From: Sinomonas cyclohexanicum | GTDB lineage: Bacteria > Actinomycetota > Actinomycetes > Actinomycetales > Micrococcaceae | DNA length: 64,000 nucleotides | Direction of reading: 5' to 3' | NCBI RefSeq assembly: GCF_020886775.1 | Contig: NZ_AP024525.1 | Coordinates: 186,001 to 250,000, forward strand | Part shown: one piece after another, positions 9,633-28,843 of the stretch | Layout of the letters: each line of letters begins with the position of its first letter | How positions within the stretch are numbered: the first letter of the stretch is position 1 | Notes under the pieces: generated by a model | The model's input: the letters and a program-made list of their open reading frames with translations, nothing else | The model's database searches: none | Told to the model about the DNA's origin: nothing | Program-made: the position numbers and the translations under genes

Positions 9633-10517
9633 ATGACCCAGCCCCAGCCGTCAGCGCCGACGCAGGAACCGACCAGCGGCGTCCGTACCATCGAGGACTC
9701 CGTCCGCACTGACTTCCACGGAGCCATGACGTACGGTCGCTACCTCGACCTGGACCGGCTCCTGAACGCCCAGCACCCCGTGAGCGTGCCCGAGCACCAC
9801 GACGAGATGCTGTTCATCATCCAGCACCAGACGTCCGAGCTGTGGCTCAAGCTCATGCTCCACGAGCTGCGTGAGGCCCGAGCCCGGCTCGCCGCGGATG
9901 ACCTCGGGATGGCGCTCAAGTGCCTCGCGAGGGTCAAGGCGATCCAGAAGCAGCTCACGGACCAGTGGACCGTGCTCGCGACCCTCACACCGCGCGAGTA
10001 CGCGCAGTTCCGCGGCGATCTGGGGAACGCGTCGGGCTTCCAGTCGTACCAGTACCGCGCCGTCGAGTTCATCCTCGGCAACAAGCACCGCGGCATGCTC
10101 AAGGTCTTCTCGTCCGAGCCCGGGGCGCAGGCCATCCTCGAGGGCCTCCTCGAGGAGCCCACGGTCTACGACGAGTTCCTCCGCGCCGTCGCCCGCGCCG
10201 GCTACGCGATCCCCGAGGACGTCCTCGCGCGGGACGTGTCGGAGCCCTGGACGTTCCGGGAGGACCTCCTGCCCGTGTTCCGGCGCATCTACGAGGAGGA
10301 GGGGACCCCGTGGGGCCTCTACGAGTCGTGTGAGGCGCTCGTGGACGTCGAGGACAACTTCCAGTTCTGGCGCTTCCGCCACCTGCGCACGGTGCAGCGC
10401 ACCATCGGTTTCAAGCGCGGCACCGGCGGCTCCTCCGGCGTCGACTTCCTCAAGCGCGCGCTGGACCTCACGTTCTTCCCCGAGCTGTACGCCGTCCGCA
10501 CCGAGATCGGAGCCTGA
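9633..10517 (+). CDS. kynA: tryptophan 2,3-dioxygenase
   Basis: A 294-residue haem enzyme that converts L-tryptophan to N-formylkynurenine, the first step of the kynurenine route. Family signatures are MTYGRYLDLDRLL, HHDEMLFIIQHQTSELWLKL near residue 55, the FRGDLGNASGFQSYQYRAVEF block, and HLRTVQRTIGFKRGTGGSSGVDFL near the C-terminus, which includes substrate-carboxylate and haem contacts. Length is as expected. Kynureninase follows after 3 bases. Two overlapping palindromes precede the gene. Confidence 0.97.
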   Translation: MTQPQPSAPTQEPTSGVRTIEDSVRTDFHGAMTYGRYLDLDRLLNAQHPVSVPEHHDEMLFIIQHQTSELWLKLMLHELREARARLAADDLGMALKCLARVKAIQKQLTDQWTVLATLTPREYAQFRGDLGNASGFQSYQYRAVEFILGNKHRGMLKVFSSEPGAQAILEGLLEEPTVYDEFLRAVARAGYAIPEDVLARDVSEPWTFREDLLPVFRRIYEEEGTPWGLYESCEALVDVEDNFQFWRFRHLRTVQRTIGFKRGTGGSSGVDFLKRALDLTFFPELYAVRTEIGA

Positions 10518-10520
10518 GCC

Positions 10521-11813
10521 GTGGCCCATTCCGTGGATTCCCCCTCGACGCACGACGGCGCGGCCTCGCCGGCCGCGGCCGTCCTCGCCACGCTGGATGC
10601 GGCAGCGCTCGACGCCGCCGACCCGCTCGCCCGGTTCCGCGAGCGGTTCCTCGTCCCCGAGGGCGAGCCGGTGGTCTCGTACCTCGACGGCAACTCGCTG
10701 GGCCGCCCGCTCGCCGACACGGGGGACCGGCTCGCCGCGTTCACCGCGGGGCCGTGGGGCCAGCGGCTCATCCGGGCGTGGGACGAGGAGTGGATGGAGG
10801 AGCCGTTCCGGCTCGGCGACCGCCTCGGAGAGGTGGTCCTCGGCGCCGCACCGGGGCAGACCGTCGTGGCCGACTCGACGTCCGTGATGATCTACAAGCT
10901 CGTCCGGGCCGCCCTCGACACCCAGGCCGGCACGGGCCGCGACGAGATCGTGGTCGATTCCGAGAACTTCCCCACGGACCGGTTCATCGTCGAGGGCATC
11001 GCCGCCGAGCGCGGCGCCACCATCCGCTGGATCAGTCCCGACCCGGCCACAGGCGTGACCGCCGCGGACGTCGAGTCTGTGCTCGGGCCGCGCACCGCGG
11101 TTGTCCTCCTGAGCCACATCGCCTACCGCTCCGGGTTCATCGCGGATGCCGCCGCGATCACCGAGGCCGCGCACCGGGCCGGCGCGCTCGTGGTGTGGGA
11201 CCTGTGCCACTCGGCCGGGTCGGTGCCGCTCGAGCTCGACGCGTGGGGCGCGGACCTCGCGGTCGGGTGCACGTACAAGTACCTCAACGGCGGCCCCGGC
11301 TCGCCCGCGTTCGGGTACGTGCGGCGGGACCTCCAGGACACGATCCGGCAGCCGATCTGGGGCTGGATGGGTGCGGCGGACCCGTTCGGGATGACCGAGT
11401 CGTACACGCCGGCGTCCGGCATGCGCCGGTTCATCACCGGCACCCCGCCGATCCTGGCGATGCAGCCGCTCTCCGCCATGGTCGAGCTCATCGCCGAGGC
11501 CGGGGGCATCGAGGCTGTTAGGGCCAAGTCCGTGCGGCTGACGGAATTCGCCGCCGCCCTCGTGGACCGGGACCTCGCGCCCCTCGGCGTCGAGTTCGCG
11601 AGCCCCCGCGATCCCGGTGTCCGTGGCTCGCACGTCACGATCAACCATCCGAGGTTCCGTGAGGTCACCGCCCTCCTGTGGGAACGTGGCGTGATCCCGG
11701 ACTTCCGGCCGCCGCACGGCCTGCGGATCGGGCTGTCGCCGCTGAGCACCTCGTTCGAGGAGGTCGAGGCCGGGATCGCGGCGATCCGGGACGCCCTGGC
11801 CGAGCTCGCATGA
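10521..11813 (+). CDS. kynU: kynureninase
   Basis: A 430-residue PLP fold-type I enzyme that cleaves kynurenine to anthranilate and alanine. Visible are SYLDGNSLGRP near residue 53, SHIAYRSG, WDLCHSAGSVP with the PLP-contacting Asp/His, and CTYKYLNGGPGSPAF with Lys253 as the Schiff-base lysine. GTG start. The N-terminal extension contains STHDGAASPA, encoded by a copy of the window's palindrome core (10547-10563). The stop overlaps the start of the PaaX-like gene at 11810, so enzyme and regulator are co-translated. With no anthranilate dioxygenase here, product flow to the CoA ligase at 16552 is inferred. Confidence 0.96.
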   Translation: MAHSVDSPSTHDGAASPAAAVLATLDAAALDAADPLARFRERFLVPEGEPVVSYLDGNSLGRPLADTGDRLAAFTAGPWGQRLIRAWDEEWMEEPFRLGDRLGEVVLGAAPGQTVVADSTSVMIYKLVRAALDTQAGTGRDEIVVDSENFPTDRFIVEGIAAERGATIRWISPDPATGVTAADVESVLGPRTAVVLLSHIAYRSGFIADAAAITEAAHRAGALVVWDLCHSAGSVPLELDAWGADLAVGCTYKYLNGGPGSPAFGYVRRDLQDTIRQPIWGWMGAADPFGMTESYTPASGMRRFITGTPPILAMQPLSAMVELIAEAGGIEAVRAKSVRLTEFAAALVDRDLAPLGVEFASPRDPGVRGSHVTINHPRFREVTALLWERGVIPDFRPPHGLRIGLSPLSTSFEEVEAGIAAIRDALAELA

Positions 11814-12751
11814 GCCGAGCGAGCGCCGGCGAGGCGACGGTGGAGGCCCGCCACGCGGCGTCGTTGGCGAAGGTAGGGCCGCTGGACGTCGTCCACTCTC
11901 CGGAGAACGTCGTCCAGTCCCTGCCGCGGGTGGCCGACGACATGGTCTCCCGCCCGGGGAGCACCGTCTCCCTGCTGCGGACCGTGGTCGGGCTGTACCT
12001 GCGCGAGGCGGGCGGCTGGATGGCAGCCGACGCGTTCCTCGCGCTCCTCGGAGCCCTCGGGGTGCCCGTGCCCCAGGCCCGCACCGCGCTGAGCCGCGTC
12101 AAGCAGCGTGGCCTCCTCGACGCCGTCGTGCGGCGCGGCGTTCCCGGCTACGCGCTCGCGCCGGGGGCGGAGGCGATGCTCGCCCGGGGAGACCGCCGGA
12201 TCCACGAGCCGCGAAGCATGGCGCCCGACGCCGAGTGGTGCCTCATCGTGTTCTCCATCCCCGAATCGATGCGGGACAGGCGCCACCAGTTGCGCAAGCA
12301 GCTGCGCTGGATCGGCTGCGGCTCGGTCGAGCCCGGGGTGTGGATCTGCCCCGAATACCTCCGGGACGAGGTCGCCGACGCCTTCGAGGACCTTGGTCTC
12401 GCAGGGCACGTGGTGCTGTTCACCGCGCGCGGCCTGCCCGAGGGACAGGGCGTGGCTGGGCAGGTGGGCCGGTGGTGGGACCTCGATGCGATCGCCGCCC
12501 TGCACCGCGGCTTCATCGCCGGGCAGTCCGGCGTTCCCGAGCGGAGCGCCGGGCCGGCCGAGAGCTTCGCCGCCTACGTGAACTGCATCGATGCGTGGCG
12601 CATGATCCCCTACCTCGACCCGGGGCTCCCGGCGAGCCTGCTCCCCGCCGACTGGCCGGGCCCAGAATGCATCGCGCTCTTCCTGCGCATTCGGGCGGCC
12701 CACGAGGGCCCGGCCGCCAGGTTTGTGCGGGGCGTCCTGGAGGCCGTGTGA
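11810..12751 (+). CDS. PaaX-family transcriptional regulator (first of three)
   Basis: A 313-residue protein with a winged-HTH N-terminal region (residues about 50-115; QARTALSRVKQRGLLDAV), the central PaaX domain (WCLIVFSIPESMRDRRHQLRKQL...GVWICPEYL) and the C-terminal GRWWDLDAIAALHRGFI block. PaaX proteins are usually repressors that sense aryl-CoA thioesters such as phenylacetyl-CoA. Overlap with kynU and an anthraniloyl-CoA pathway downstream suggest it senses an aryl-CoA of this pathway. The roughly 50-residue N-terminal extension is longer than usual, so the true start could be internal. Confidence 0.85.
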   Translation: MSRASAGEATVEARHAASLAKVGPLDVVHSPENVVQSLPRVADDMVSRPGSTVSLLRTVVGLYLREAGGWMAADAFLALLGALGVPVPQARTALSRVKQRGLLDAVVRRGVPGYALAPGAEAMLARGDRRIHEPRSMAPDAEWCLIVFSIPESMRDRRHQLRKQLRWIGCGSVEPGVWICPEYLRDEVADAFEDLGLAGHVVLFTARGLPEGQGVAGQVGRWWDLDAIAALHRGFIAGQSGVPERSAGPAESFAAYVNCIDAWRMIPYLDPGLPASLLPADWPGPECIALFLRIRAAHEGPAARFVRGVLEAV

Positions 12752-12776
12752 GTACCTGCGGCGGTACGCTCGCATC

Positions 12777-13643
12777 ATGCCCACCACCGCCGTGAACGAG
12801 GCGAAGGCCGTCGCGTCGCCCCGCCACCAGCAGCTCATTGTCACAGTGTTCGGCCTGTACGGGCGCGAGCATGGGGGAGCTCTCCCCGTGGCCGGGCTCG
12901 TGCGGCTCCTGGGCGACCTCGGCGTCGAGGGCGCTGGCGTCCGCTCTGCGGTGTCCCGCCTCAAGAAGCGTGGCGTCCTCGAGAGCGTGAAGATCGGCAG
13001 TGCCGCCGCCTACCGGCTCGGACCAGGGCTCGAGGAGGTCTTCTCCGAGGGCGACGAGCGGATCTTCTCCCCGCGCCGCGCCCGTCCCGACGACCCGTGG
13101 CTCCTGGCCGCCTTCTCGGTCCCGGAATCGGAGCGCGCCGTGCGCCACCAGATCCGGGCGGCGTTCACCCGGCTGGGCTTCGGTGCGGTCTCGCCCGGCC
13201 TGTGGATCGCGCCGGCCGCGCTCGAGAAGGAGGCCCGCCGCCAGCTCGCCCGTGCGGGTGCGGCGGAGTACGTGGAATTCTTCCGTGCCGAGTACGCGGA
13301 CGATGGCGAGGGCCCGGGCATGCGCGGACGTGTCGCCGAGTGGTGGGATCTGGACGCGCTCGAGGCGACCTACGTCGACTTCGTCGAGGGCCAGCGCGGC
13401 GTGCACGAGCGCTGGGAGGGCCGCACGCCGTCGTCCGCGCAGGACGAGGCCGTCGCGTTCGCCGACTACGTCTCGCTCCTGACCCATTGGCGCCGCCTGC
13501 CGTACCTTGATCCGGGCCTGCCTGCCGAGTACCTCCCCGAGACGTGGCACGGGCTCGTGGCCGGGGAGCTCTTCGCGGACCTGAACGCGAAGCTCGCAGG
13601 GCCCGCCCGGCGCCATGCCGAACGGGCCCTCGCGGGGAGCTGA
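12777..13643 (+). CDS. PaaX-family transcriptional regulator (second of three)
   Basis: A 288-residue protein with the same architecture as its upstream neighbour: HTH region with AGVRSAVSRLKKRGVLES (residues about 50-75), AAFSVPESERAVRHQIRAAF, then GRVAEWWDLDALEATYVDFVEGQ. It lies 25 bp after the first PaaX gene, so two divergent paralogues are adjacent; they share domain order rather than high identity. It is convergent with the RidA gene. It may control the FAH/cupin/ligase operon. Confidence 0.85.
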   Translation: MPTTAVNEAKAVASPRHQQLIVTVFGLYGREHGGALPVAGLVRLLGDLGVEGAGVRSAVSRLKKRGVLESVKIGSAAAYRLGPGLEEVFSEGDERIFSPRRARPDDPWLLAAFSVPESERAVRHQIRAAFTRLGFGAVSPGLWIAPAALEKEARRQLARAGAAEYVEFFRAEYADDGEGPGMRGRVAEWWDLDALEATYVDFVEGQRGVHERWEGRTPSSAQDEAVAFADYVSLLTHWRRLPYLDPGLPAEYLPETWHGLVAGELFADLNAKLAGPARRHAERALAGS

Positions 13644-13652
13644 ACTCGCCTT

Positions 13653-14078
13653 CTACTCAGATGCGGACCCCGAGCCGATCACGGCCACGCCCTTGATTTC
13701 GATCAGGGCCTCCTCCTGCCACAGCCGGGTGATGCCGATGCCCGCCATGGCGGGGTAGTCGCGGCCGGCCATCTCGCGCCAGAGGCGCCCGATCTCGCGG
13801 CCGTTGGCCATGTAGTCGTCCACATCGGTGAGGTAGATCGTCACGTCCACGAGGTCCTCGGGGCGCCCGCCCGCCTCCGCGAGCGTGGCCAGGACGTTGC
13901 CGAACGCCTGCTTGAATTGCTCGACGATCCCGCCGGGCACGATCTTCATGTCCGCGTCCAGGGCGGTCTGCCCGCCGAGGTACACGGTGTTGCCGACCTT
14001 GATCCCGTGCGCGTAGCCCGAGGGCTTCGGCAGCGATGCCGGGTTGATGGTCTCCTTGCGCGTCATCGTCGCCTCCAT
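13653..14078 (-). CDS. RidA/YjgF-family enamine/imine deaminase
   Basis: A 141-residue RidA-fold protein: NTVYLGGQTALD, VEQFKQAFGNVLATLAEAGGRPEDLVDVTIYLTDVDDY, and MAGIGITRLWQEEALIEIKGVAV, which matches the usual R.....P....E.e..A motif. RidA enzymes hydrolyse reactive enamines/imines to ketones and ammonia. The chosen ATG (14078) follows AGGAGG at 5 bases; ATG 14066 also has a usable site. It is divergent from the FAH gene. Because the 2-aminobenzoyl-CoA monooxygenase/reductase product is an enamine, a pathway-specific deaminase role is a specific inference. Confidence 0.85.
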   Translation of the reverse strand: MEATMTRKETINPASLPKPSGYAHGIKVGNTVYLGGQTALDADMKIVPGGIVEQFKQAFGNVLATLAEAGGRPEDLVDVTIYLTDVDDYMANGREIGRLWREMAGRDYPAMAGIGITRLWQEEALIEIKGVAVIGSGSASE

Positions 14079-14150
14079 CGTGTCCTCCTACGGTCCGTTC
14101 CAGTGTGGGGCTAGTCACGTCCCTGTGAGCCGTGCTACGTTGAGCTTAGT

Positions 14151-14162
14151 TGACGAGCGTCA
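14151..14162. promoter_or_regulatory. TGACG-N2-CGTCA palindrome between ridA-like and FAH genes
   Basis: TGACGAGCGTCA, extended by flanking T/A to TTGACGAGCGTCAA. It lies in the divergent promoter region, 35 bases before the FAH start. It shares half-sites and spacing with the sites upstream of kynA and of the AraC-like gene. Confidence 0.45.
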
Positions 14163-14196
14163 AGAAAGCGACATAAGAAATCCGAGGGGAAGATCC

Positions 14197-15042
14197 ATGG
14201 ACCTGGCGACCATCCGCACCGCAGAGGGCACCACCGCCGCCGTGCGCAGCGGCGACCGCTGGCTGCCGCTCGGCGCGCCGGACCTGAGCGCGCTCCTCGC
14301 CGATCCGTCCTGGCGCACGACGGCGGAGGCTGCCCTCGCGTCCAGCGGGCCGGACGCCGGGGTCGCCCAGGCGGACGCAGAGCTGGCCCTGCCGCTCCCG
14401 GCCCCGGCCAAGGTCATCTGCTGCGGCCTCAACTACGCCGACCACATCACCGAGATGGGCCGCGACCTGCCCGAGCACCCCACGCTCTTCGCCAAGTTCG
14501 CCGACACCCTCACCGGCCCCACGGACGAGATCGCGGTCCCGCCCGCTGCCCAGGGCGCGCTCGACTGGGAGGCCGAGCTCGCCGTCGTCATCGGCACGGA
14601 GCTGCGCGGCGCAGGCGAGGACGAGGCGCGCGCGGGTATCGCCGGCTACACGCTCGCGAATGACATCTCCGTCCGCGACTGGCAGAAGCGCACCCTGCAG
14701 TGGTTCCAGGGCAAGGCGTGGGACGCGACGAACCCCCTCGGCCCGGTCCTCGTCACAGCAGACGCAGTCGATCCCGAGGACGGCATCAATATCACGTGTG
14801 AGGTCAACGGGATCCGCCGCCAGACCGGCAACACCAAGACCCTCGTCTTCAGCGCCGCGGCCCTCGTGGCCTACATCTCCCAGTTCACCGTGCTCCGCCC
14901 CGGCGATGTCATCCTGACCGGCACCTCCGGCGGCGTCGGCATGGGCATGCAGCCTCCGCAGTACCTCGCCGACGGCGACACCGTGGTGGTCGAGGCCGAG
15001 GGCCTCGGCCGACTGGCCAACACCATCCGCTTCACCGACTGA
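14197..15042 (+). CDS. fumarylacetoacetate hydrolase (FAH) family protein
   Basis: A 281-residue protein with an N-terminal cap and the FAH C-terminal fold. It shows the conserved ICCGLNYADHITEMG entry and FAKFADTLTGPTDEI. DWEAELAVVIG follows, carrying the metal-binding acidic residues of the D..E.E motif, then GYTLANDISVRDWQ and PGDVILTGTSGGVGMG. Members hydrolyse or decarboxylate beta-dicarbonyl compounds, or tautomerise them. It heads a run of tightly spaced genes (cupin, thioesterase, CoA ligase, monooxygenase/reductase). Ring or C-C hydrolysis after anthraniloyl-CoA dearomatisation is an inference. Confidence 0.88.
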   Translation: MDLATIRTAEGTTAAVRSGDRWLPLGAPDLSALLADPSWRTTAEAALASSGPDAGVAQADAELALPLPAPAKVICCGLNYADHITEMGRDLPEHPTLFAKFADTLTGPTDEIAVPPAAQGALDWEAELAVVIGTELRGAGEDEARAGIAGYTLANDISVRDWQKRTLQWFQGKAWDATNPLGPVLVTADAVDPEDGINITCEVNGIRRQTGNTKTLVFSAAALVAYISQFTVLRPGDVILTGTSGGVGMGMQPPQYLADGDTVVVEAEGLGRLANTIRFTD

Positions 15043-15078
15043 ACACCCACACACTAGAGAGACGGCAAAGGAGCCATC

Positions 15079-15573
15079 ATGACGCAGCAGACCGAGACCC
15101 AGCAGACCGAGTACGCGACCGAGGGCGACAACTCCATCTACGCCCAGCCCGACGGCCGCGTCGTCCCCGTCGTGACGCGCGCCGGCCACGAAGACACCTC
15201 GACGATGCAGTCGGGCCAGTGCGTGCGCGTCTCGGGCGTCTCGATCCAGCACACCCCGGCTACCAAGATCTGGTTCGGTCAGGTCTCCAACGAGCCCGGC
15301 TACCGCTCGTTCCCGCACCACCACGGCGAGGCCGAGACCGGCGGGTACGTGCTCCGCGGCAAGGGCCGCATCTATTTCGGCGAGGGCTACAAGGACTACA
15401 TCGACATGACCGCCGGTGACTGGGTCTTCGTCCCGCCCTTCATGCCTCACGTCGAGGCGAACATGTCCATCACCGAGGAGCTCGTGTGGCTCACGGCGCG
15501 CACGCCGGAGAACATCGTGGTGAACCTCGAGGACGTCGACGACTCCGAACTCGAGGGGTTCCGCCGGGCATGA
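15079..15573 (+). CDS. single-domain cupin protein
   Basis: A 164-residue cupin. The first cupin motif is HHHGEAETGGYVLRG, with metal-ligand histidines and a glutamate; the second is AGDWVFVPPFMPHVEAN, which supplies the last His. The N-terminus is Gln/Thr-rich and probably unstructured. It lies 36 bp after the FAH gene and overlaps the thioesterase start by 4 bases, so it is co-translated within the anthraniloyl-CoA operon. The reaction is unknown; isomerase, dioxygenase or hydrolase roles all occur in this fold. Confidence 0.8.
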   Translation: MTQQTETQQTEYATEGDNSIYAQPDGRVVPVVTRAGHEDTSTMQSGQCVRVSGVSIQHTPATKIWFGQVSNEPGYRSFPHHHGEAETGGYVLRGKGRIYFGEGYKDYIDMTAGDWVFVPPFMPHVEANMSITEELVWLTARTPENIVVNLEDVDDSELEGFRRA

Positions 15574-16496
15574 GCACCGCGACCACTCACTCGACAGCGC
15601 TGCGCGCCTCGCTCACGCTGACGTCCACGGAGCCCGAGCACTTCGACCTCGCGTTCACCGCGACGACCCAGCAGTGCCCGTGGCCCAAGGCCTACGGCGG
15701 GGACATGGTCGCCCAGGCCGCTGCGGCCGCGATGCTCTCGGTCGAGGCGGACCGGCGGCTGCACTCCACGCACTCGTACTTCATGCGGCCGGTGGACATC
15801 GGCGCGGACGTCCGGTACGAGGTCGAGCTCCTGCGCGACGGCCGCGGCTACTCGACGCGGCAGGTGCGCGCGTACCAGAACGACAAGCCGGTCTACGTCT
15901 CCCTCGCCTCGTTCCAGGTCCCGGAGGACGGTGCCCAGCTCGCCCCGGCGATGCCGGCGGGCATCCCGGATCCGGAGTCGCTGCCCAGCTCCGCCGAGTA
16001 CCTCGCCGCCATTGAGCCGGGAACCGGGACGCTCACGGAGGAGTCCAAGGCGTACTGGTCCGCTGGCCGCTCGTTCGACCACAGGCATGTCCCCGGCCCG
16101 GTGTATGTGCGCGTCGAGGGCGAGCACGTTCCGCACCAGGCGGTGTGGGTGCGTGCCTTCGAGTCGCTCGACCGCCCGGCCGCGTCCGGCCCCGGCGCGC
16201 TCACCGACGAGCAGCTGCACACGGCGGCCCTTGCCTACGTGTGCGACTACACGATCATCGAACCGACCCTGCGGGCGCTCGGCATCGCGTGGGCCGACCC
16301 GGGCCTGGTGACCGCAAGCCTGGACCATTCGATGTGGTTCCACCGGCCGGCTCGCGCCGACGAGTGGCTCCTGTACGCGCAGGAAGCCGCGGGCGCCCAG
16401 TCCGGGCGAGGCCTCGGCCTCGGCCGCTTCTTCGACACGGACGGGCGCCTCGTCGCGACCGTCGCGCAGGAGGCCATGGTCCGGCCCGGACGCTGA
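15570..16496 (+). CDS. acyl-CoA thioesterase, TesB-like double hotdog
   Basis: A 308-residue protein. The N-terminal hotdog shows WPKAYGGDMVAQAAAAAMLSV and LHSTHSYFMRPVDIGADVRYEV; the C-terminal one ends ASLDHSMWFHRPARADEWLLYAQEA...GRGLGLGRFFD, with the usual TesB active-site pattern (D, T/S and Q positions). It would release free acids from CoA esters. It overlaps the preceding cupin (ATGA) and precedes an aryl-CoA ligase, so it either finishes the pathway or rescues CoA. Confidence 0.87.
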   Translation: MSTATTHSTALRASLTLTSTEPEHFDLAFTATTQQCPWPKAYGGDMVAQAAAAAMLSVEADRRLHSTHSYFMRPVDIGADVRYEVELLRDGRGYSTRQVRAYQNDKPVYVSLASFQVPEDGAQLAPAMPAGIPDPESLPSSAEYLAAIEPGTGTLTEESKAYWSAGRSFDHRHVPGPVYVRVEGEHVPHQAVWVRAFESLDRPAASGPGALTDEQLHTAALAYVCDYTIIEPTLRALGIAWADPGLVTASLDHSMWFHRPARADEWLLYAQEAAGAQSGRGLGLGRFFDTDGRLVATVAQEAMVRPGR

Positions 16497-16551
16497 CGTC
16501 CGCGCCTCCCAGGCCCCCATGTCCCGACCGCTATCTCCCGGAAAGGCCGCC

Positions 16552-18204: not shown

Positions 18205-18215
18205 GAGGAAGACCC

Positions 18216-20624
18216 ATGAAGCCCTTGAAAGTTGCAGTCATCGGCGGCGGCCCCGGCGGCCTGTACTTCTCCGCCCTCATGAAGCAGCTCGACCCTTCCC
18301 ACCAGGTCACGGTGTGGGAACGGAACCGCGCCGAGGACACCTTCGGCTTCGGCGTCGTGTTCTCCGACGAGACCCTCGGCGGGATCGGCAACGCGGACAC
18401 GGTTGTCGCGGAGTACATGTCGGAGCGGTTCGCCCGCTGGACCGACATTGACATCAGCCTCAACGGCGTCTCGCACACTGTGGGGGGCCAGGGCTTCGCG
18501 GCGATGAGCCGCAAGGAGCTCCTCCAGCTGCTCCAGCGCCGCACCGCCGAACTCGGCGTGGACGTCCGCTTCGCCACGATGGCGCCCGACGTCGAGGAGC
18601 TCTCCCGCGACTACGATCTGGTCCTCGCGGCAGACGGCGTGAACTCGGCCGTGCGCGCGAAGTTCGCGGACGCCTTCGGGCCGTCCCTGGACGTGCGCCC
18701 GAACAAGTACATGTGGCTTGGGACGGACCTCGTCTTCGAGGCGTTCCAGTTCTTCGTCAAGGACACCCAGTGGGGCACGATGCAGATCCACGGGTACCCG
18801 TTCTCCGACGAGGGCTCCACGTTCATCGTCGAGATGCACGAGGACGTGTGGCGGGCCGCGGGCTTCGACGAGACCGCGGGCACCGTGTTCCCGCCGGGCG
18901 TCTCCGACGAGAAGTCGATCGCGAAGATCCGCGAGATCTTCGCCGACGAGCTCGCCGGCCACGAGGTCCTCGCGAACAACTCGAAGTGGATCAACTTCAC
19001 CACCGTCCGCAACACGTCGTGGCGCCACGGCAACGTGGTGCTCCTCGGCGACGCGGCGCACACCGCGCACTTCTCGATCGGCTCCGGCACGAAATTGGCC
19101 ATGGAGGACGCGCTCGCGCTCGCGGCGTGCCTGCACGAGCACCCCACGCTCGAGGCCTCCCTCGAGGCGTACGAGACTGAGCGCCGCCCCGTCGTCGAGT
19201 CCACCCAGCGGGCGGCCCAGGCCTCGCTCGAGTGGTTCGAGAACATCGGCATGTACACGTCGCAGGACCCGGTGCAGTTCTGCTTCAACCTGCTGACCCG
19301 CTCGCGCCGCATCACCCAGGAGAACCTGCGCCTGCGCGACCCGGAGTTCGCGGCCGAGGTGGACGCCTGCTTCGCGGTCGCCCAGAAGGCGGCCGGCCAC
19401 GGCGACGGCGCATCCCGGCCTGCGATGTTCCAGCCGTTCCGGATCGGTGGCCTCGAGCTGAAGAACCGCGTGGTCGTCTCGCCCATGGACATGTACTCCG
19501 CGGTGGACGGCGTCCCCGGCGACTTCCACCTCGCGCACCTGGGCTCGAAGGCCCTCGGCGGGGCGGGGCTGGTCATGACCGAGATGGTGTGCGTCTCCGC
19601 GGAGGGCCGGATCACGCCCGGGTGCGCGGGCCTGTACACGGACGGGCAGCGGGACGCGTGGGGCCGCATCGTGGACTTCATCCACGGCGCCTCGACCGCC
19701 AGGATCGGCGCGCAAATCGGCCACTCGGGCCGCAAGGGGTCCACGAAGCTCATGTGGGAGGGCATCGACCAGCCGCTCGAGTCCGGCAACTGGCAGACCG
19801 TTGCGCCCTCGGCCCTGCCGTATGGGCCCGGGAACCAGGTCCCCGCCGAGCTGGACCGCGCCGGGATGGGCGTGATCCGCGACGAGTTCGTGGCAGCCGC
19901 CCGGCGGGCGGGCGAGGCCGGCTTCGACCTCCTCGAGGTCCACGCCGCCCACGGCTACCTGCTCTCCTCCTTCATCTCGCCGGTCTCGAACCATCGCGCC
20001 GATGAGTACGGCGGGAGCCTCGAGAACCGCCTCCGCTTCCCGCTCGAGGTCTTCGATGCCGTCCGTGAGGCGTTCCCGGCGGAGCGACCCGTTACCGTGC
20101 GCATCTCCGCCGTGGACTGGCTCCCCGACGGCAATACCGCCGAGGACGGGGTCGAGATCGCCAAGGCGTTCGTGGCGCACGGCGCCGCCGCCGTGGATGT
20201 CTCGACGGGACAGATCGCCCAGGAGGAGAAGCCGGCGTTCGGCCGTTCGTACCAGACGCCGTTCGCGGACCGCATCCGCCAGGCGCTTGAGGGCACCGAC
20301 GCCGCCGTCATCGCCGTGGGCGCCATCTCGAGCTACGACGACGTCAACTCGATCCTCCTCGCCGGACGCGCCGACCTCTGCGCACTGGGCCGTACCCACC
20401 TGTACGACCCGAACTGGACCCTGCACGCCGCGGCGGAGCAGGACTACAAGGGCGCCGGGGCCGAGTGGATCCCGCAGTTCAAGGCCGGCCGCCGCAAGCC
20501 GCCGTCGGCCCGCACCGACGCGGTCCGCCCGCGGCTCTCGCTCCTGCGCGAGCCCGACGGCGACGGCCTTCCGACGCACCTGCGCTGGACGCCGGCCAAG
20601 CGCGGGGTCCTGGCTGGCGCCTGA
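18216..20624 (+). CDS. 2-aminobenzoyl-CoA monooxygenase/reductase-like fusion (FAD hydroxylase plus Old Yellow Enzyme)
   Basis: An 802-residue two-domain flavoprotein. Residues 1 to about 390 form a class A FAD monooxygenase (VIGGGPGGLYFS at the start, LLGDAAHTAHFSIGSGTKLAMEDA). Residues about 405-765 form an Old Yellow Enzyme FMN barrel (FRIGGLELKNRVVVSPMDMY, IGHSGRKGS, HAAHGYLLSSFISP, NHRADEYGGSLENR). This architecture is that of 2-aminobenzoyl-CoA monooxygenase/reductase, which hydroxylates and then reduces the aromatic CoA ester to 2-amino-5-oxocyclohex-1-ene-1-carboxyl-CoA. Salicylyl-CoA 5-hydroxylase is a relative, and some homologues with the OYE domain are unassigned. It sits 11 bp after the ligase, with GAGGAAG as ribosome site. 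Confidence 0.9.
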   Translation: MKPLKVAVIGGGPGGLYFSALMKQLDPSHQVTVWERNRAEDTFGFGVVFSDETLGGIGNADTVVAEYMSERFARWTDIDISLNGVSHTVGGQGFAAMSRKELLQLLQRRTAELGVDVRFATMAPDVEELSRDYDLVLAADGVNSAVRAKFADAFGPSLDVRPNKYMWLGTDLVFEAFQFFVKDTQWGTMQIHGYPFSDEGSTFIVEMHEDVWRAAGFDETAGTVFPPGVSDEKSIAKIREIFADELAGHEVLANNSKWINFTTVRNTSWRHGNVVLLGDAAHTAHFSIGSGTKLAMEDALALAACLHEHPTLEASLEAYETERRPVVESTQRAAQASLEWFENIGMYTSQDPVQFCFNLLTRSRRITQENLRLRDPEFAAEVDACFAVAQKAAGHGDGASRPAMFQPFRIGGLELKNRVVVSPMDMYSAVDGVPGDFHLAHLGSKALGGAGLVMTEMVCVSAEGRITPGCAGLYTDGQRDAWGRIVDFIHGASTARIGAQIGHSGRKGSTKLMWEGIDQPLESGNWQTVAPSALPYGPGNQVPAELDRAGMGVIRDEFVAAARRAGEAGFDLLEVHAAHGYLLSSFISPVSNHRADEYGGSLENRLRFPLEVFDAVREAFPAERPVTVRISAVDWLPDGNTAEDGVEIAKAFVAHGAAAVDVSTGQIAQEEKPAFGRSYQTPFADRIRQALEGTDAAVIAVGAISSYDDVNSILLAGRADLCALGRTHLYDPNWTLHAAAEQDYKGAGAEWIPQFKAGRRKPPSARTDAVRPRLSLLREPDGDGLPTHLRWTPAKRGVLAGA

Positions 20625-20648
20625 CGCCCCTATCCCGTCCGCTAGCGT

Positions 20649-20708
20649 CTGAGGGTCACCTCCCGGAGGTCATTGTGAGGACATTGACCTCCGGGATGTG
20701 ACCCTCAG
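20649..20708. repeat. long hairpin A after the monooxygenase/reductase
   Basis: 24-base arms (20649-20672 and 20685-20708) with a single mismatch and a 12-base loop. Imperfect pairing continues outward (GCTAG...CTAGC). It is much longer than a typical terminator. It lies between two genes of the same strand, 36 bases before the thioesterase start. Confidence 0.6.
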
Positions 20709-20744
20709 GCGTTCTAGCCTGACCGTGCTACCAAGGAGGAGACC

Positions 20745-21197
20745 GTGACCGAGGCGAGCGGCGCCGTCGTGCGCGAAGAGGTGACCAGGACCGTGGAGTG
20801 GGTCGACACCGATGCGGCGGGCCACCACCACAACTCGTTCGTGCTGCGCAGCGTCGAGGCCGCGGAGGCCCGGCTGTTCCGGCGCCTGGGGGTCCTGCAG
20901 GAGTACTTCGGGGCCGCGCCGCGGGTGCGGCAGGAGGTGGACTACCTCTCGAAGCTGTACTTCGGGCAGGAATCGACCACGGTCCTCGAGCTCGAGGCGG
21001 TGGGGCGGTCATCGATGACCTTCCGCTTCCAGGTGTGGGGCGAGGCGCACGACGGCGGTCCCTCCGGCCGCGTCGAGCGGCGCCTTGCGGCGGCGGGCCG
21101 GTTCGTGACGGTGCACGTGCCCAGGGACAGTGAGTCGTCGGCCCCGTGGCCGGAGGCCATCAGGGCGGCCGTCACCGTCCCGGCAGCCGCCGAGTAG
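20745..21197 (+). CDS. hotdog-fold acyl-CoA thioesterase (4-hydroxybenzoyl-CoA thioesterase-like)
   Basis: A 150-residue single hotdog protein: TVEWVDTDAAGHHHNSFVLRSVEAAEARLFRRLG near residue 15 has the D..GH.HN.....E signature of the 4HBT family, with the catalytic-loop aspartate. GTG start after AAGGAGGA. A long hairpin separates it from the upstream operon, and another follows it. Together with the TesB-like gene the cluster has two thioesterases, which suggests at least one pathway-specific CoA release step. Confidence 0.85.
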   Translation: MTEASGAVVREEVTRTVEWVDTDAAGHHHNSFVLRSVEAAEARLFRRLGVLQEYFGAAPRVRQEVDYLSKLYFGQESTTVLELEAVGRSSMTFRFQVWGEAHDGGPSGRVERRLAAAGRFVTVHVPRDSESSAPWPEAIRAAVTVPAAAE

Positions 21198-21221
21198 GGC
21201 CCCGGCGCACAGCACGCGGAA

Positions 21222-21284
21222 GGACCCCCGGTCCGGACAGAACCGCCGTCTGTGGCGCGTGGTTCTGTCCGGAACCGGGGGTCC
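21222..21284. repeat. long hairpin B between convergent thioesterase and MFS genes
   Basis: Arms 21222-21244 and 21261-21284 pair over 23 bases with one bulge; the loop is 16 bases (GCCGTCTGTGGCGCGT). It probably ends transcription in both directions. Its loop resembles that of hairpin C at 47330-47391. Confidence 0.6.
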
Positions 21285-21298
21285 AGTCCGTCCGAGGC

Positions 21299-22789
21299 TC
21301 AGCCCCTGAACGCGAACTTCTCCTGGAGCCGGGCCGCGGTGCGGTCCGGGTTCAGCAGCAGGACGCTGAGCGCCCCCACCGCGACGAGGTATGCGCCGAT
21401 CATCCAGAACGACGTGTCCATGCCCGCCGTGAGCCGAGCGATCATCGCGGCGCTCTCCTTGACGCCCTTCGGTGCCGGCACGTATCCGGCGGCGTCCATG
21501 AGCGCCCCGACCATGGCGGGCGCAACGACGCCGCCGAGGGAGGCGAAGCCCGTGAGCGTCGCCATCACCGCGGCGCGCTGGCGCGACGAGACGCAGAACG
21601 CGACCGCTGTCGGCGCGAGCGGATAGATCATCGCGAACCCGGCGCCCACGGTCACAGCCACGATGGCCGCAGCACCGTGCAGTCCCGGCAGGAGCAGGAA
21701 GCAGAGCCCGGACAGAAGCAGTGTTCCGCCGAAGAGCGCGCCCAGGGCCCATCGCACGGTCACCCCGCGGCGCATCAGGAACCGCGACGCGTACCCGAGC
21801 ACAAGGAGCGCGACTGCCCCCACGATCCATGGGAGCGTCGAGAGGGCACCGATGGCTTCGGGGGAGACCGCAACGACGGACGCGAGGTACTTGGGCGACC
21901 AGGTGGTGAGGAACCCCTGCGCCCAGAAGCAGCCAGCGCCGGCGAGGACCGCCACCGCGAACATGCGGGTACCCAGGATCCGCCGGATCGGCACGACCGC
22001 GAGGGCGTCGGCCTTCTCCGCGATGCTCGCCGAAGCGCTCGGAGCCGGCGCCGGCCCTGCAGTGCCTGTCCCCGCGGGAGGTGAGCTGACGGCCGACGGC
22101 GCGTCCCCGGCGTCGTGCGCGGCCCCACCGCCGCGGGCGGCGGCGTTCTTCGCCATGTGGCTGAAGGGGCCGTCCCTGCCCACGAGCAGCCACGCGAGCG
22201 ACCATACGAGGCCGATGACGCCCAGGAATCCGAAGGCCCAACGCCAGCCGAGCTCGGGGTGCGCGATGATCCACGCGAGGATGGGGGCCGCGACGATCGG
22301 GCCGAGCGTGGACCCCGCGGCGACGAGGCTGCTGGGGAGCCCGCGCTCGGCGGGCGAGAACCACCCGTGGGCGTGCTGGAGCGAGATCGGGGTAGCGGGC
22401 CCTTCCGCCGCGCCGAGCAGGATGCGTGTGACGAGCAGGACGGCTGCGCCCCCGCCGGCGAGCATGGGCAGCTGGATGACAGCCCACGAGACTCCCATCG
22501 CTAGGAGGATCCATCTCGTATGGACACGTCCTGCGAGGAATCCCACCACGACCGCGGATATCGCGAACAGGAAGAAGAACGAGCTGCCGATCAGGCCGAA
22601 CTCCCCGGCGCTGAGCCCCAGGTCCCGCATCGCGGGGTCCGCGACGAGTCCCAGGACCGCCTTGTCGGCGAAGTTGATGATCTGGAATACGACGAGCATG
22701 CCGGTGACCAGCCACGCGCGCCGGTTCATCCTGCCGTTCGCGATGGCCGCCCGGAGGGTGTGGTCGGCGAGCTGCGGTGCGGCGCTCAT
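21299..22789 (-). CDS. MFS transporter, ACS-like (paralogue of the gene at 45685)
   Basis: A 496-residue 12-helix transporter. The first helix region NFADKAVLGLVADPAMRDLGLSAGEFGLIGS and FLAGRVHTRWILLAMG match the MFS at 45685 (SWADKAVLGLAAVPIM...). The central cytoplasmic loop is long and Ala/Pro-rich (residues about 220-255) and includes AHDAGDAPS, encoded by a copy of the palindrome core at 22095-22120. The ATG overlaps the MBL stop codon, so the pair forms an operon. Probably imports an aromatic acid or an amino-acid derivative. Confidence 0.85.
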   Translation of the reverse strand: MSAAPQLADHTLRAAIANGRMNRRAWLVTGMLVVFQIINFADKAVLGLVADPAMRDLGLSAGEFGLIGSSFFFLFAISAVVVGFLAGRVHTRWILLAMGVSWAVIQLPMLAGGGAAVLLVTRILLGAAEGPATPISLQHAHGWFSPAERGLPSSLVAAGSTLGPIVAAPILAWIIAHPELGWRWAFGFLGVIGLVWSLAWLLVGRDGPFSHMAKNAAARGGGAAHDAGDAPSAVSSPPAGTGTAGPAPAPSASASIAEKADALAVVPIRRILGTRMFAVAVLAGAGCFWAQGFLTTWSPKYLASVVAVSPEAIGALSTLPWIVGAVALLVLGYASRFLMRRGVTVRWALGALFGGTLLLSGLCFLLLPGLHGAAAIVAVTVGAGFAMIYPLAPTAVAFCVSSRQRAAVMATLTGFASLGGVVAPAMVGALMDAAGYVPAPKGVKESAAMIARLTAGMDTSFWMIGAYLVAVGALSVLLLNPDRTAARLQEKFAFRG

Positions 22790-23868
22790 GCGAGGCTCCC
22801 GGCGAGCTCGGCGCGGACGACGCCGGGCACCGCCCCGCGCTCGAGGCGATGCACGCCGTCATGCGTGCCGCCACCTTCTGGGCCGGGCGGCTGCCCTACG
22901 CTGAAGACGTCGTTGTCCTCCGCTATGGCGACCGGGCCGGCGAAGTCAGCGCGGGCGCCCACGAGGATGGCATCGAGGTCTGCGGCGCCTGGAGTGTTGG
23001 GGACGATGTGGTGCAGCACCAGGCCGTGCACCCCCGCGTTGGCGGCGACCTTTCCGACCTCGCTGTAGGGCGTGTGGGACTCACGCAGGTGCACCTCGAT
23101 GCCGGCGCGCGACGGCCCGTCCGGGAACGTCGCAAGGATCGAGTCGAGGTCGATGACCTCGTGCAGGAGCAGGTCCGCCCCCTCGGACAGGCGCTCCACG
23201 TTGGCGGAGGGTGCTGTGTCACCGGAGATCACCACCGAGCCGTACGCGGAGTCGACGCGGAAGGCGAAGGCGGGGTAGCAGAGGCGGTGGTCGGCGAGGG
23301 TCGCGGTGATCGTCACCAGCTCGTCGCGGTAGACCTCGAACGGCTCCAGCTCCGGATGACGGGTAGATTCGTCCGTGCCCGCCCCGCCGGGGACGGTGAT
23401 GTCCTCGGCCAGGATCCAGGCACGGGGGTCTCCGCGGCCCTCGTCTTCCCGGCGCACCGCGATGTCCGAGCTGAACACCGTGCCGAGGAGGGCCTCGACA
23501 ATGTCGGCGGTGCCTGTCGTGGTACGCCCGCGCTTGAGCGCCGCGCGGCCGGGGCCCAGGACGCGCACGGGCCGCGAGAAGGACTCGCCGGGGACTTCCC
23601 ATCCGGTCACGAGGTAGGCGCCGAGGTCGTAGAGGTGGTCTGAGTGGTGGTGGGTGAGGAGGACGGCGCGCAGCTGGGCCCACGAGCAGTGCGAGCGGTA
23701 GTTGCGGATGCTGCCCATGCCTGCGTCGATGAGGTAGGCGGCGCCGTCCACGACGACGGCGGTCGAGGTGCCCGCGCGGCTCGCGGAGACAATGGGTCCG
23801 CCTCCCGTGCCGAGGGCGTGCACGGTCATGCCGCGCTTGGGGGCGGCTGCGCGGGGTGGGGAGGTCAT
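22786..23868 (-). CDS. metallo-beta-lactamase-fold hydrolase (paralogue of the gene at 41514)
   Basis: A 360-residue MBL protein with the metal motif THHHSDH (near residue 78), GSVVISGDTAPSANVERL and GADLLLHEVID carrying further ligands, and LVLHHIVP near the C-terminus. The arrangement resembles the RNase Z/arylsulfatase-like branch. The protein at 41514 shares the same blocks (PAFAFR, YGSVVISGDT, ADLLxHE). Both occur near a paralogous ADKAVLGL-type transporter. An acyl, lactone or amide ring-opening role is possible; no substrate can be assigned. Confidence 0.8.
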   Translation of the reverse strand: MTSPPRAAAPKRGMTVHALGTGGGPIVSASRAGTSTAVVVDGAAYLIDAGMGSIRNYRSHCSWAQLRAVLLTHHHSDHLYDLGAYLVTGWEVPGESFSRPVRVLGPGRAALKRGRTTTGTADIVEALLGTVFSSDIAVRREDEGRGDPRAWILAEDITVPGGAGTDESTRHPELEPFEVYRDELVTITATLADHRLCYPAFAFRVDSAYGSVVISGDTAPSANVERLSEGADLLLHEVIDLDSILATFPDGPSRAGIEVHLRESHTPYSEVGKVAANAGVHGLVLHHIVPNTPGAADLDAILVGARADFAGPVAIAEDNDVFSVGQPPGPEGGGTHDGVHRLERGAVPGVVRAELAGSLA

Positions 23869-23919
23869 GGCGTGGCCTTTCGTCGGGTGTCGGGGGAACG
23901 GTCCGCTGGCCAGCGTGTG

Positions 23920-24003
23920 AGCTACAACATATATAGCTAATTTGTCGATCGCAAGAGGTGTTGCATATTGCCGCCTGAACGTGCCATGCTGGCGGCACGT
24001 TCA
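23920..24003. promoter_or_regulatory. divergent promoter with two inverted repeats
   Basis: AGCTA/TAGCT (23920-23924 and 23934-23938) lies in an AT-rich stretch. A perfect 10-bp repeat TGAACGTGCC/GGCACGTTCA with an 8-base gap (23976-23985, 23994-24003) ends 30 bases before the cupin ATG. The region separates the MBL-MFS operon from the cupin-arylformamidase operon. The second repeat is a strong operator candidate. Confidence 0.45.
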
Positions 24004-24033
24004 CGGATGAAGGTTCGACGAAAGGAACAGGCA

Positions 24034-24516
24034 ATGGAGCCGACCAGCCAGGAGATCGTCCTCGGAGACCTCCCCAAGGGCATCACCCTTGCGAGCGAAG
24101 CCATGGGCAACAAAACGTGGAACGTCCTGGGCCACACGTACCTCGCCAAGGTCGAGTCTGCGACGAGCTTCGCATGGCTCTCCCTCGACCCCACCGGCAC
24201 GGGCGTCCCGCCCCACGTGCATCCGACCCAGGACGAGCACATCTATGTCCTCGAGGGCGTTTACACGCTCTACCTCGATGGCGAGTGGACAACCGCCGGG
24301 CCCGGCGACACGGTCCGTATGCCGAAGGGGCTGCCGCACGCCTACTACAACCGGGCCGACCAGCCGGGGAAGTCGCTCTTCTGGGTCAGCCCGGCCGGCC
24401 AGCTCAGCAAGCTCTTCGACGAGCTGAATCACCTGACCGACCCCGAGGAAGTCGTGCGGCTCTCGGCCCTGCGCGATGTGGACTTCCTCCCGCCGGGCGC
24501 CGTCCCAGGCGCGTGA
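24034..24516 (+). CDS. cupin protein
   Basis: A 160-residue single cupin: PPHVHPTQDEHIYVLEGVYTLYL (first motif, His/His/Glu ligands) and GDTVRMPKGLPHAYYN (second motif). The stop overlaps the start of the arylformamidase-like gene, so they are co-translated. It is distinct from the cupin at 15079, which has an HHHGE motif. GAAAGGAA precedes the ATG. A role in quinone or kynurenine metabolism is possible but unproven. Confidence 0.8.
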   Translation: MEPTSQEIVLGDLPKGITLASEAMGNKTWNVLGHTYLAKVESATSFAWLSLDPTGTGVPPHVHPTQDEHIYVLEGVYTLYLDGEWTTAGPGDTVRMPKGLPHAYYNRADQPGKSLFWVSPAGQLSKLFDELNHLTDPEEVVRLSALRDVDFLPPGAVPGA

Positions 24517-25274
24517 GCGGCCGTCACGGGGTCGGCCCGACGCCCGTCGTGGTGCGGTACGGCGACCACCCCGAGCAGCGGGTCGAGCTCATCGACCCAG
24601 CCCCGGGTTCGCGGCCGCGCGGCGTCGCGCTCCTCGTGCACGGCGGCTACTGGCGGGAGCGGTTCACGCTCCGGCTGATGGACCGGCTCGCGGCGGACCT
24701 CACGGCGCGCGGCTGGGCCGTGGCGAATGTCGAATACCGTCGCGGCGCCGCCGGTCCGTGGCCCGCGCCGGACGACGACGTCCGTGCGGCCGCGACGGCG
24801 ATCGCCGGGGGCGCGTGGCGGCGGCGCTGGGACGGACCCCTTGTGGCGATCGGGCACTCGGTGGGTGGGCAGCTCGCGCTGCTTGCCGCCCGGGCTCCCA
24901 CGTGCGGGGTGGACTCCGTCGTGGCGCTCGCCCCCGTGACGGACGCCGCGCGCGTGTGGGGCGAGGATCTTGGCGACGGCGCCGCCGCCGAGTATTTCGG
25001 CGGCTCCCCGGCGGAGCTGGGCAGCGTGTACGCCACCGCGTCGCCGGTGCGGGCGTTCGGCTCGGGGCGGCCCGTCCTCGTGGTCCACGGCGACGCGGAC
25101 ACGCGCGTGCCGCTCGCGCACTCGGTCGATTTCGTGGCGGCGGCGTCGGCGGCGGGGGAGTCCGTGGGACTGCTCGAGGTCCCGGGCCTGGATCATCTGG
25201 GGGCGATCGACTCGGCCGGGCCCCACTGGGAGGCGACGGTCGGCTGGATGGCGGGGGCCGCCGTCGTGCGCTGA
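24513..25274 (+). CDS. alpha/beta hydrolase, probable N-formylkynurenine formamidase (arylformamidase)
   Basis: A 253-residue alpha/beta hydrolase with the HGGxW oxyanion motif (HGGYW, residues 43-47) typical of eukaryote-type kynurenine formamidases, the nucleophile elbow GHSVGG (Ser116), VLVVHGDADTRVPLAHS with the catalytic Asp, and LDHLGAID with the His. GTG start overlapping the cupin stop. Given tryptophan dioxygenase and kynureninase 15 kb upstream, the missing middle step, N-formylkynurenine to kynurenine, is the most likely role. The last codons (AAVVR) are encoded by a half copy of the palindrome core. Confidence 0.78.
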   Translation: MSGRHGVGPTPVVVRYGDHPEQRVELIDPAPGSRPRGVALLVHGGYWRERFTLRLMDRLAADLTARGWAVANVEYRRGAAGPWPAPDDDVRAAATAIAGGAWRRRWDGPLVAIGHSVGGQLALLAARAPTCGVDSVVALAPVTDAARVWGEDLGDGAAAEYFGGSPAELGSVYATASPVRAFGSGRPVLVVHGDADTRVPLAHSVDFVAAASAAGESVGLLEVPGLDHLGAIDSAGPHWEATVGWMAGAAVVR

Positions 25275-28715: not shown

Positions 28716-28843
28716 CACGGCCTCCCGCAGGAATCGGACAGCAGACCGCAGTCAGCGGATAGCCGCCGCCCGCCGCCACCCGGGAGCATCGATGCCATCC
28801 CCGAAACCTACCCGCCGGGGCAGACCTCTGGAGGTCAGTCACC

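Follow-up and report, generated by a model that had tools for sequence, protein, structure and literature searches.

The gene unit described here lies in a 64,000-nucleotide stretch of Sinomonas cyclohexanicum DNA (the window; positions 186001-250000 of contig NZ_AP024525.1, which is the entire 4.41 Mb source genome) and is built around a 2-aminobenzoyl-coenzyme A (CoA) monooxygenase/reductase fusion (ABMR). Our preferred reading, to which we give close to an even chance, is that the unit serves tryptophan and anthranilate catabolism of the CoA-thioester type through an alternative, O2-dependent lower pathway, in which a Rid protein is followed by a relay of cupin, thioesterase and FAH-family hydrolase. 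KynA and KynU would form anthranilate, and a ligase would convert it to anthraniloyl-CoA. After ABMR, a Rid protein lacking Arg105 would convert the enamine to 2,5-dioxocyclohexane-1-carboxyl-CoA and ammonia; a cupin with three histidine ligands would, like Dke1, cut this beta-dicarbonyl between C1 and C2 to give 2,4-dioxopimelyl-CoA; the TesB or the hotdog thioesterase would free 2,4-dioxopimelate (succinylpyruvate), an acylpyruvate; and the FAH protein, as an acylpyruvate hydrolase, would split succinylpyruvate into succinate and pyruvate. We infer every reaction after ABMR from what was observed, namely gene content, co-occurrence, mutually exclusive modules and the loss of one residue. The scheme would employ every core gene, with the unit supplying one gene for each missing step after ABMR. 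The genes that take part are as follows.

9633..10517, plus strand: kynA, tryptophan 2,3-dioxygenase of the upper pathway (PF03301, 216 bits)
10521..11813, plus strand: kynU, kynureninase, predicted to make anthranilate (PF22580 and PF00266)
13653..14066, minus strand: Rid protein (PF01042, 80 bits against a cut-off of 27.3), with Met at the Arg105 position and Glu120 kept
14197..15042, plus strand: FAH-family protein, proposed acylpyruvate (succinylpyruvate) hydrolase (PF01557, 230 bits)
15079..15573, plus strand: single-domain cupin (cupA), proposed ring-cleaving dioxygenase (PF07883, 32 bits against a cut-off of 27.2)
15570..16496, plus strand: TesB-type acyl-CoA thioesterase (PF02551, PF20789 and PF13622)
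16552..18204, plus strand: aryl-CoA ligase, proposed anthranilate-CoA ligase (PF00501; benzoate-CoA ligase family at 333 bits, below the cut-off of 375)
18216..20624, plus strand: ABMR (FAD_binding_3 and Oxidored_FMN)
20745..21197, plus strand: hotdog (4HBT) thioesterase, the second thioesterase of the unit (PF13279)

The order is kynA, kynU, two PaaX-type regulators, a divergent pair of Rid (minus) and FAH (plus), and then a plus-strand run from FAH through cupin, TesB, ligase and ABMR to the 4HBT thioesterase; the cupin and TesB genes share a four-base overlap. Pfam and NCBIfam matches confirmed the genes and positions named in the original prediction, which was made from the sequence of the stretch, including the start of the fusion at ATG 18216. 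That account did not mention that the Rid gene runs divergently from FAH on the minus strand, that the downstream MFS and MBL genes are also on the minus strand, or that two PaaX-type genes (11810 and 12777) stand between kynU and Rid.

Rid and the cupin follow ABMR closely across genomes. We searched 245 genomes of the window's family, the source genome included, with thresholds of E <=1e-200 for ABMR, E <=1e-30 for Rid and >260 bits for the cupin. ABMR was found in 44 of them, spread over 13 of 32 genera. This Rid occurred in 43 of the 44 and in none of the 201 others, and the sole ABMR genome with no Rid match (G519) is 88% complete. The Fisher test on this table (43, 1, 0, 201) gives p 2.5e-47, though it ignores relatedness. 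A close cupin was present in 44 of the 245 genomes, exactly those with ABMR; five more genomes had no close cupin and carried a paralogue near 145 bits. Since the whole 4.41 Mb genome holds just three PF01042 matches, and since Rid and cupin track the fusion in this way, the cluster is not a chance assembly.

The neighbourhood survey covered 135 ABMR loci, annotated by phmmer with score cut-offs that we set: the window, the best 80 of 591 related loci, 41 loci cut from genomes and 13 hand-picked plasmid loci (10 of 40 listed ABMR rows and three of seven loci taken from 40 cupin rows). A further 47 genomes of the phylum had a match; 40 of them were fetched, and seven with cut or weak matches were left out. 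A 3 kb contig (L122), a locus with its ABMR split over frames (L167), window pieces and 5 kb duplicates were excluded before counting. Neighbourhood counts given below out of 93 refer to the long-flank loci, whose flanks reach 7 kb or more on each side; the 42 shorter loci, ended by contig or fetch limits, had Rid in 24. The sample is uneven, with 25 Streptomyces loci and eight from one genus among the 57 that carry crotonase or acyl-CoA dehydrogenase genes.

A Rid gene lies near ABMR in 84 of the 93 loci, and the genes around the pair fall into alternative sets. Module 1, the arrangement of the window, combines Rid with cupin, FAH and thioesterase and occurs in 28 loci. These 28 cupA loci have Rid in every case, FAH in 26 and TesB in 27, with neither crotonase nor acyl-CoA dehydrogenase in any (0/28 for each). 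The 65 loci without cupA carry Rid in 56, crotonase in 52, acyl-CoA dehydrogenase in 55, FAH in six and TesB in one. Crotonase and/or acyl-CoA dehydrogenase are present in 57 of the 65, accompanied by Rid in 54 of the 57. This second set, module 2, also includes an SDR in Pseudomonadota, and in some cases a 3-hydroxyacyl-CoA dehydrogenase. The cupA set and the crotonase/dehydrogenase set swap as wholes, whether by gain or by loss. Genome comparison, the test that the original prediction had named for the claim that these genes track ABMR, bears the claim out for Rid (43/44 genomes against 0/201, and 84/93 loci) but not for FAH, which goes with cupA (26/28 loci, against only 6/65 others). FAH was ruled out as a universal partner of ABMR, being near it in 32 of the 93 loci, 26 of them with cupA.

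On the ABMR tree (106 rows, left after dropping 27 module-2 rows of L047-L092, mainly Streptomyces, from the 133 with more than 500 residues), five changes of the module-1 label are required, all forced by starred branches and one of them being L030. Module 1 is found in four ABMR lineages: the main actinobacterial clade, Streptosporangiaceae (L038, L039), Rhizobium (L125, L184) and Roseobacteraceae/Paracoccaceae (L182, L185). The cupA set thus spans two phyla, and the last three lineages lie among module-2 relatives. L182, L184 and L185 were found by way of the cupin search and do not count among the long-flank loci. The Alphaproteobacterial cupA loci carry hotdog thioesterases and SDRs, and no TesB was found in them.

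Further evidence comes from 11 cupA-like loci that have no ABMR (L171-L177, L181, L183, L186, L187). FAH is near in seven and Rid in none, which suggests that Rid goes with the amine-leaving enzyme and FAH with the cupin. The FAH gene of L171 and L172, belonging to a different gene set ~5 kb away, may be unrelated; the one in L181 matches the query weakly (88 bits), and the record itself names an FAH-family protein. Some of the 11 loci carry OYE-type reductases or SDRs, and they perhaps represent other alicyclic dione pathways.

The original prediction held that RidA removes the amino group. The genomic evidence supports a Rid step well, but the protein is not a classical RidA. Like the RidA/YjgF/UK114 family, it has the PF01042 superfamily domain, Glu120 and an aromatic residue at position 17; it differs in having Met for Arg105, the mark of the RidA subfamily, and it scores 61 bits against TIGR00004, below the cut-off of 106. 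The pattern holds throughout. Among 109 linked Rids the Arg105 column reads Met in 97, Leu in four, Ile in four, Val in two, Thr in one, Ser in one and Arg in none; all 109 retain Glu120 and carry Phe or Tyr at position 17. The same column in 29 control Rids reads Arg in 20, Ser in three, Ala in three, Leu in one and Asn in one, with one gap. As controls we took, from 31 genomes of the phylum, the PF01042 matches with the better scores, plus the two others of the source genome; L202, which is the linked Rid of G026, was left out, and L210 was not picked up by the search. Linked Rids are not alone in having lost the arginine; what sets them apart is the methionine. In the Rid tree (111 rows, 28 linked rows having been dropped beforehand, and 134 columns), the linked Rids fall on one side of a branch with an SH-aLRT value of 91, below the starred level.

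The arginine of RidA contacts substrate carboxylates, and altering it nearly abolished RidA activity (PMC4433059). Arg117 is among the conserved cleft residues of the Rid-family 2-aminomuconate deaminase (PMC6742747). Classical enamine hydrolysis by RidA is therefore not directly transferable to the window protein. The arginine may be dispensable here, and a hydrophobic residue take its place, because the carboxylate of the substrate would be a CoA thioester. One could instead propose that the Rid protein is not the main-flux catalyst at all, the enamine hydrolysing spontaneously while Rid removes a side product, say, or binds a ligand. The loss of Arg105 in 109 of 109 linked Rids fits such a role, as does the judgement that Rids without the arginine are most likely not imine hydrolases, with the Rid4-7 groups called mysterious (PMC4433059). 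We nevertheless consider it unlikely, given the tight co-occurrence over two phyla and two lower modules, the retention of Glu120 in every linked Rid, the absence of Rid from the three loci in which an amidase-like gene and a bicupin occur together, and the expectation on chemical grounds that a vinylogous carbamate would be rather stable near neutral pH. As judged from gene context, the Rid protein is well supported as the putative nitrogen-removing protein of the pathway, though not as a classical RidA.

The next question is which protein opens the ring. The original prediction assigned this to the FAH or the MBL protein. An MBL gene is near ABMR in 3 of the 93 loci, and on this count we rejected it as ring opener. 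In the FAH version, Rid would deaminate, FAH would open the ring of 2,5-dioxocyclohexanecarboxyl-CoA hydrolytically (a retro-Claisen reaction) to 4-oxopimelyl-CoA, enzymes encoded elsewhere would degrade this product, and the cupin would be minor. FAH proteins do hydrolyse C-C bonds of dicarbonyls, and most other loci have a crotonase-family gene in place of FAH and cupin; the crotonase family includes BadI-type ring hydrolases. This version leaves the conserved cupin and TesB unexplained. In the 32 loci with both proteins, identity to the window protein is at least 61% for the cupin (median 73%) and at least 39% for FAH (median 59%), FAH being the less conserved of the two in 31 of the 32, and FAH is only 39-43% identical to that of the window in eight cupA loci. 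In addition, FAH joins the cupin where ABMR and Rid are both missing, in seven of the 11 loci described above. Direct opening by FAH is thus less likely than the relay, and as a full account we regard it as improbable.

The residues of the FAH protein also point toward acylpyruvate hydrolysis. Matched by motif and spacing, without alignment to FAHD1 itself, the window protein keeps all eight FAHD1 positions (E71, E73, D102, H30, E33, R106, Q109 and K123). Each is kept in 35 or 36 of the 36 module-1 FAHs, the gap being L017, whose FAH runs off the contig. In FAHD1, E71, E73 and D102 are the metal carboxylates and H30 and E33 form a dyad, and prokaryotic members commonly hydrolyse acylpyruvates (PMC7116474). 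The PDB relatives of the window FAH include L-2,4-diketo-3-deoxyrhamnonate hydrolase and the acylpyruvase FAHD1, and also hydratases and decarboxylases; it passes no NCBIfam equivalog cut-off (best 204.8 against 500). In the relay that we prefer, the cupin and a thioesterase would stand between the ring and FAH. The cupin has a conserved metal-site pattern, HxH...(E)...H: among 45 cupins, His80 is present in 44, His82 in 45 and His124 in 45, while Glu86 is present in 41 and replaced in four distant paralogues (Gln in three, Asn in one). Dke1 is likewise a small cupin with a 3-His centre; it cleaves many beta-diketones, placing one oxygen atom into each product (PMC4019311).

Several observations weigh against the relay. 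Homology of the cupin to Dke1 was searched for and none was detected, and a profile of the 45 cupins finds 14 PDB sequences at E <=0.01, all weakly, these being OxdC-type cupins, Sll1358 and one unknown protein. The best PDB match of the FAH protein is a 'predicted hydratase' and the third is a decarboxylase, although such names do not fix activity. FAH is missing from the flanks in two of the 28 cupA loci (L025, L038) and is not nearby in four of the 11 cupA-like loci that lack ABMR, and cupA is missing from one otherwise matching locus (L030). No Rid is near three crotonase/dehydrogenase loci (L063, L091, L127) or three partnerless ABMR loci (L078, L141, L148). Microvirga lotononidis has a Rid with the YPAM motif (L217:8860-9429) and no ABMR within 9 kb. 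Two further points come from work on Arthrobacter sp. Rue61a, in which 2,4-dioxopimelyl-CoA goes unmentioned in the available text and extracts were quenched in formic acid (PMC3534580). The C7H8O4-CoA seen in that strain could stem from this quench, in which case the deamination would be chemical.

Plasmid pAL1 of strain Rue61a (L009) matches the window in gene content, order and orientation: Rid on the minus strand, then FAH, cupin, TesB, ligase and ABMR, with PaaX regulators on both sides. Its ABMR is 76% and its cupin 82% identical to those of the window. It differs in having no kynA or kynU within the 30 kb examined, and its cluster serves quinaldine degradation. A Tsukamurella plasmid also carries Rid, FAH, cupin, TesB, ligase and ABMR in the order of the window, and a plasmid of Rhodococcus erythropolis BG43 has the six core genes rearranged. 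The main text of the Rue61a genome paper, which cites a 1990 description of the monooxygenase/reductase products, gives roles, in the available text, only for the ligase and ABMR and makes no mention of RidA, YjgF, FAH, fumarylacetoacetate, cupin, endoribonuclease or 'translation initiation inhibitor' (PMC3534580). It reports that Rue61a breaks down anthranilate only via CoA thioesters, that the pAL1 ligase and a chromosomal one are active, and that cells grown on anthranilate contain CoA esters of a C7H7NO3 acid and of a C7H8O4 acid, the second of which may be cyclohexanedione-carboxyl-CoA (PMC3534580). The presence of this second ester, perhaps the deaminated dione, in a strain whose plasmid carries the cluster supports the Rid step.

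The 2-aminobenzoyl-CoA pathway of Azoarcus (Aromatoleum) evansii shares the ligase and the ABMR fusion with the window. A 2001 abstract on its gene cluster is said to list a 'putative translation inhibitor' gene, which we take for a Rid-family member. There the pathway proceeds by 'enzymes of beta-oxidation', which is the sole account of the steps after ABMR in the available text (PMC4539516). The window unit differs: neither a crotonase nor an acyl-CoA dehydrogenase gene lies less than 13 kb from ABMR. The best match in its genome to the Paracoccus crotonase is 29% identical and lies at 3.3 Mb of the contig. The logic proposed for the window is that of the gentisate pathway. In that pathway, gentisate dioxygenase, a cupin, cuts C1-C2 of a 2,5-dioxygenated ring, and after maleylpyruvate isomerase the FAH protein fumarylpyruvate hydrolase splits an acylpyruvate. 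Cupin cleavage at C1-C2 followed by FAH on an acylpyruvate would be common to both. The ring in the window would differ in being CoA-bound and de-aromatised, and a single-domain cupin and a thioesterase would act with no isomerase needed.

The ABMR fusion exceeds the NCBIfam cut-off for PRK08255 (1211 against 1078 bits), and its NCBIfam/RefSeq label is 'bifunctional salicylyl-CoA 5-hydroxylase/oxidoreductase'. If that name were taken at its word, the true substrate would be salicylyl-CoA, and Rid, FAH and cupin would belong to something else. Only the annotation name speaks for this. Against it, kynA and kynU adjoin the unit, and the ABMR is 76% identical to that of pAL1, where the adjacent ligase has demonstrated anthranilate-CoA ligase activity (PMC3534580). 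A match to gentisate 1,2-dioxygenase is also lacking in the window, although the identical search finds one in L032 and in L153; a search of the whole genome, run without a positive-control genome, gave no match either. We weighed salicylyl-CoA as the substrate and consider it very improbable. The occurrence of an Arg105-less Rid in 84 of the 93 loci indicates an amino substrate despite the label, and with kynA, kynU and the Rid context we favour anthraniloyl-CoA as the likely substrate.

Taken more broadly, the Arg105-less Rid group of Actinomycetota and Pseudomonadota may be a committed catabolic hydrolase of CoA-bound enamines that feeds interchangeable ring-opening modules. One of these would open the ring by a new oxygenolytic route: a single-domain cupin would cut a dione that is de-aromatised and bound to CoA, with FAH then setting free succinate and pyruvate. 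We put this forward tentatively, with somewhat less than even confidence. It would give a candidate function to Rid proteins that lack the catalytic arginine, and at least two further gene sets are in use by bacteria in this position beside ABMR. If true, the route would have wide relevance in soil bacteria, since tryptophan, indole, auxin and quinaldine all lead to anthranilate; auxin breakdown passes through isatin to anthranilate (PMC9613470). A full-text literature search, with most subscription journals outside it, found no paper that puts forward Rid, cupin and FAH as parts of this pathway.

One of the other gene sets does without Rid. Three loci (L051, L069, L076) form module 3, which has a bicupin, FAH, a CN-hydrolase and an Asp/Glu racemase-arylmalonate decarboxylase-type protein that we take to be maleate-isomerase-like. 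The bicupins of L069 and L051 score 324 and 321 bits against gentisate 1,2-dioxygenase, below the cut-off of 442, and L076 was assigned by phmmer to L069. Judged by gene content, module 3 would again pair FAH with a cupin of ring-cleaving type, would bring a further candidate for releasing the nitrogen, and may represent a third route in which nitrogen is lost after ring cleavage. We keep the CN-hydrolase as an amidase as a lead only. A CN-hydrolase also lies beside ABMR in L010, with a weaker match in L035, both of which have Rid, and the CN-hydrolase of the Rid-less loci could be a nitrilase of an upper pathway.

The remaining Rid-less loci are the six named above, making nine with module 3. 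L078, L141 and L148 have ABMR-like fusions and none of the sought pathway genes nearby. They also fit no module, together with L030 and L032, which have Rid and FAH and neither cupA nor crotonase/dehydrogenase above the cut-offs.

Other genes of the window lie outside the conserved core or may supply its regulation and substrate.

11810..12751, plus strand: PaaX-type regulator 1 (PaaX, PaaX_M and PaaX_C domains in Pfam)
12777..13643, plus strand: PaaX-type regulator 2 (open reading frame; phmmer to PaaX queries, 233 bits)
21299..24516: accessory cassette outside the conserved core, with an MFS protein (minus), an MBL hydrolase (minus) and a second cupin (plus, from ~24034)
22786, minus strand: MBL hydrolase (Pfam; RNase Z-type match below cut-off)
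24117-25274: alpha/beta hydrolase (Pfam)

A PaaX-type gene is near ABMR in 74 of the 93 loci and a 4HBT match in 27, of which 19 are cupA loci. KynA matches occur in six loci and kynU in three. Downstream of the 4HBT thioesterase, the MFS, MBL and second cupin genes are each found in 3 of the 93 loci (the window, L019 and L052), and the alpha/beta hydrolase of the 21299-25274 cassette in two, being common only to the window and L052. On these counts the second cupin and MFS were ruled out as core parts, with the alpha/beta hydrolase at 2/93. Finally, a thiamine pyrophosphate (TPP)-dependent enzyme stands beside a PF04199 'cyclase' at 26143-28718 on the minus strand. The cyclase is presumably of the isatin hydrolase/KynB kind, and the pair is perhaps an isatin-to-anthranilate feeder; among the 93 loci, the cyclase is found in 15 and the TPP enzyme in 11.

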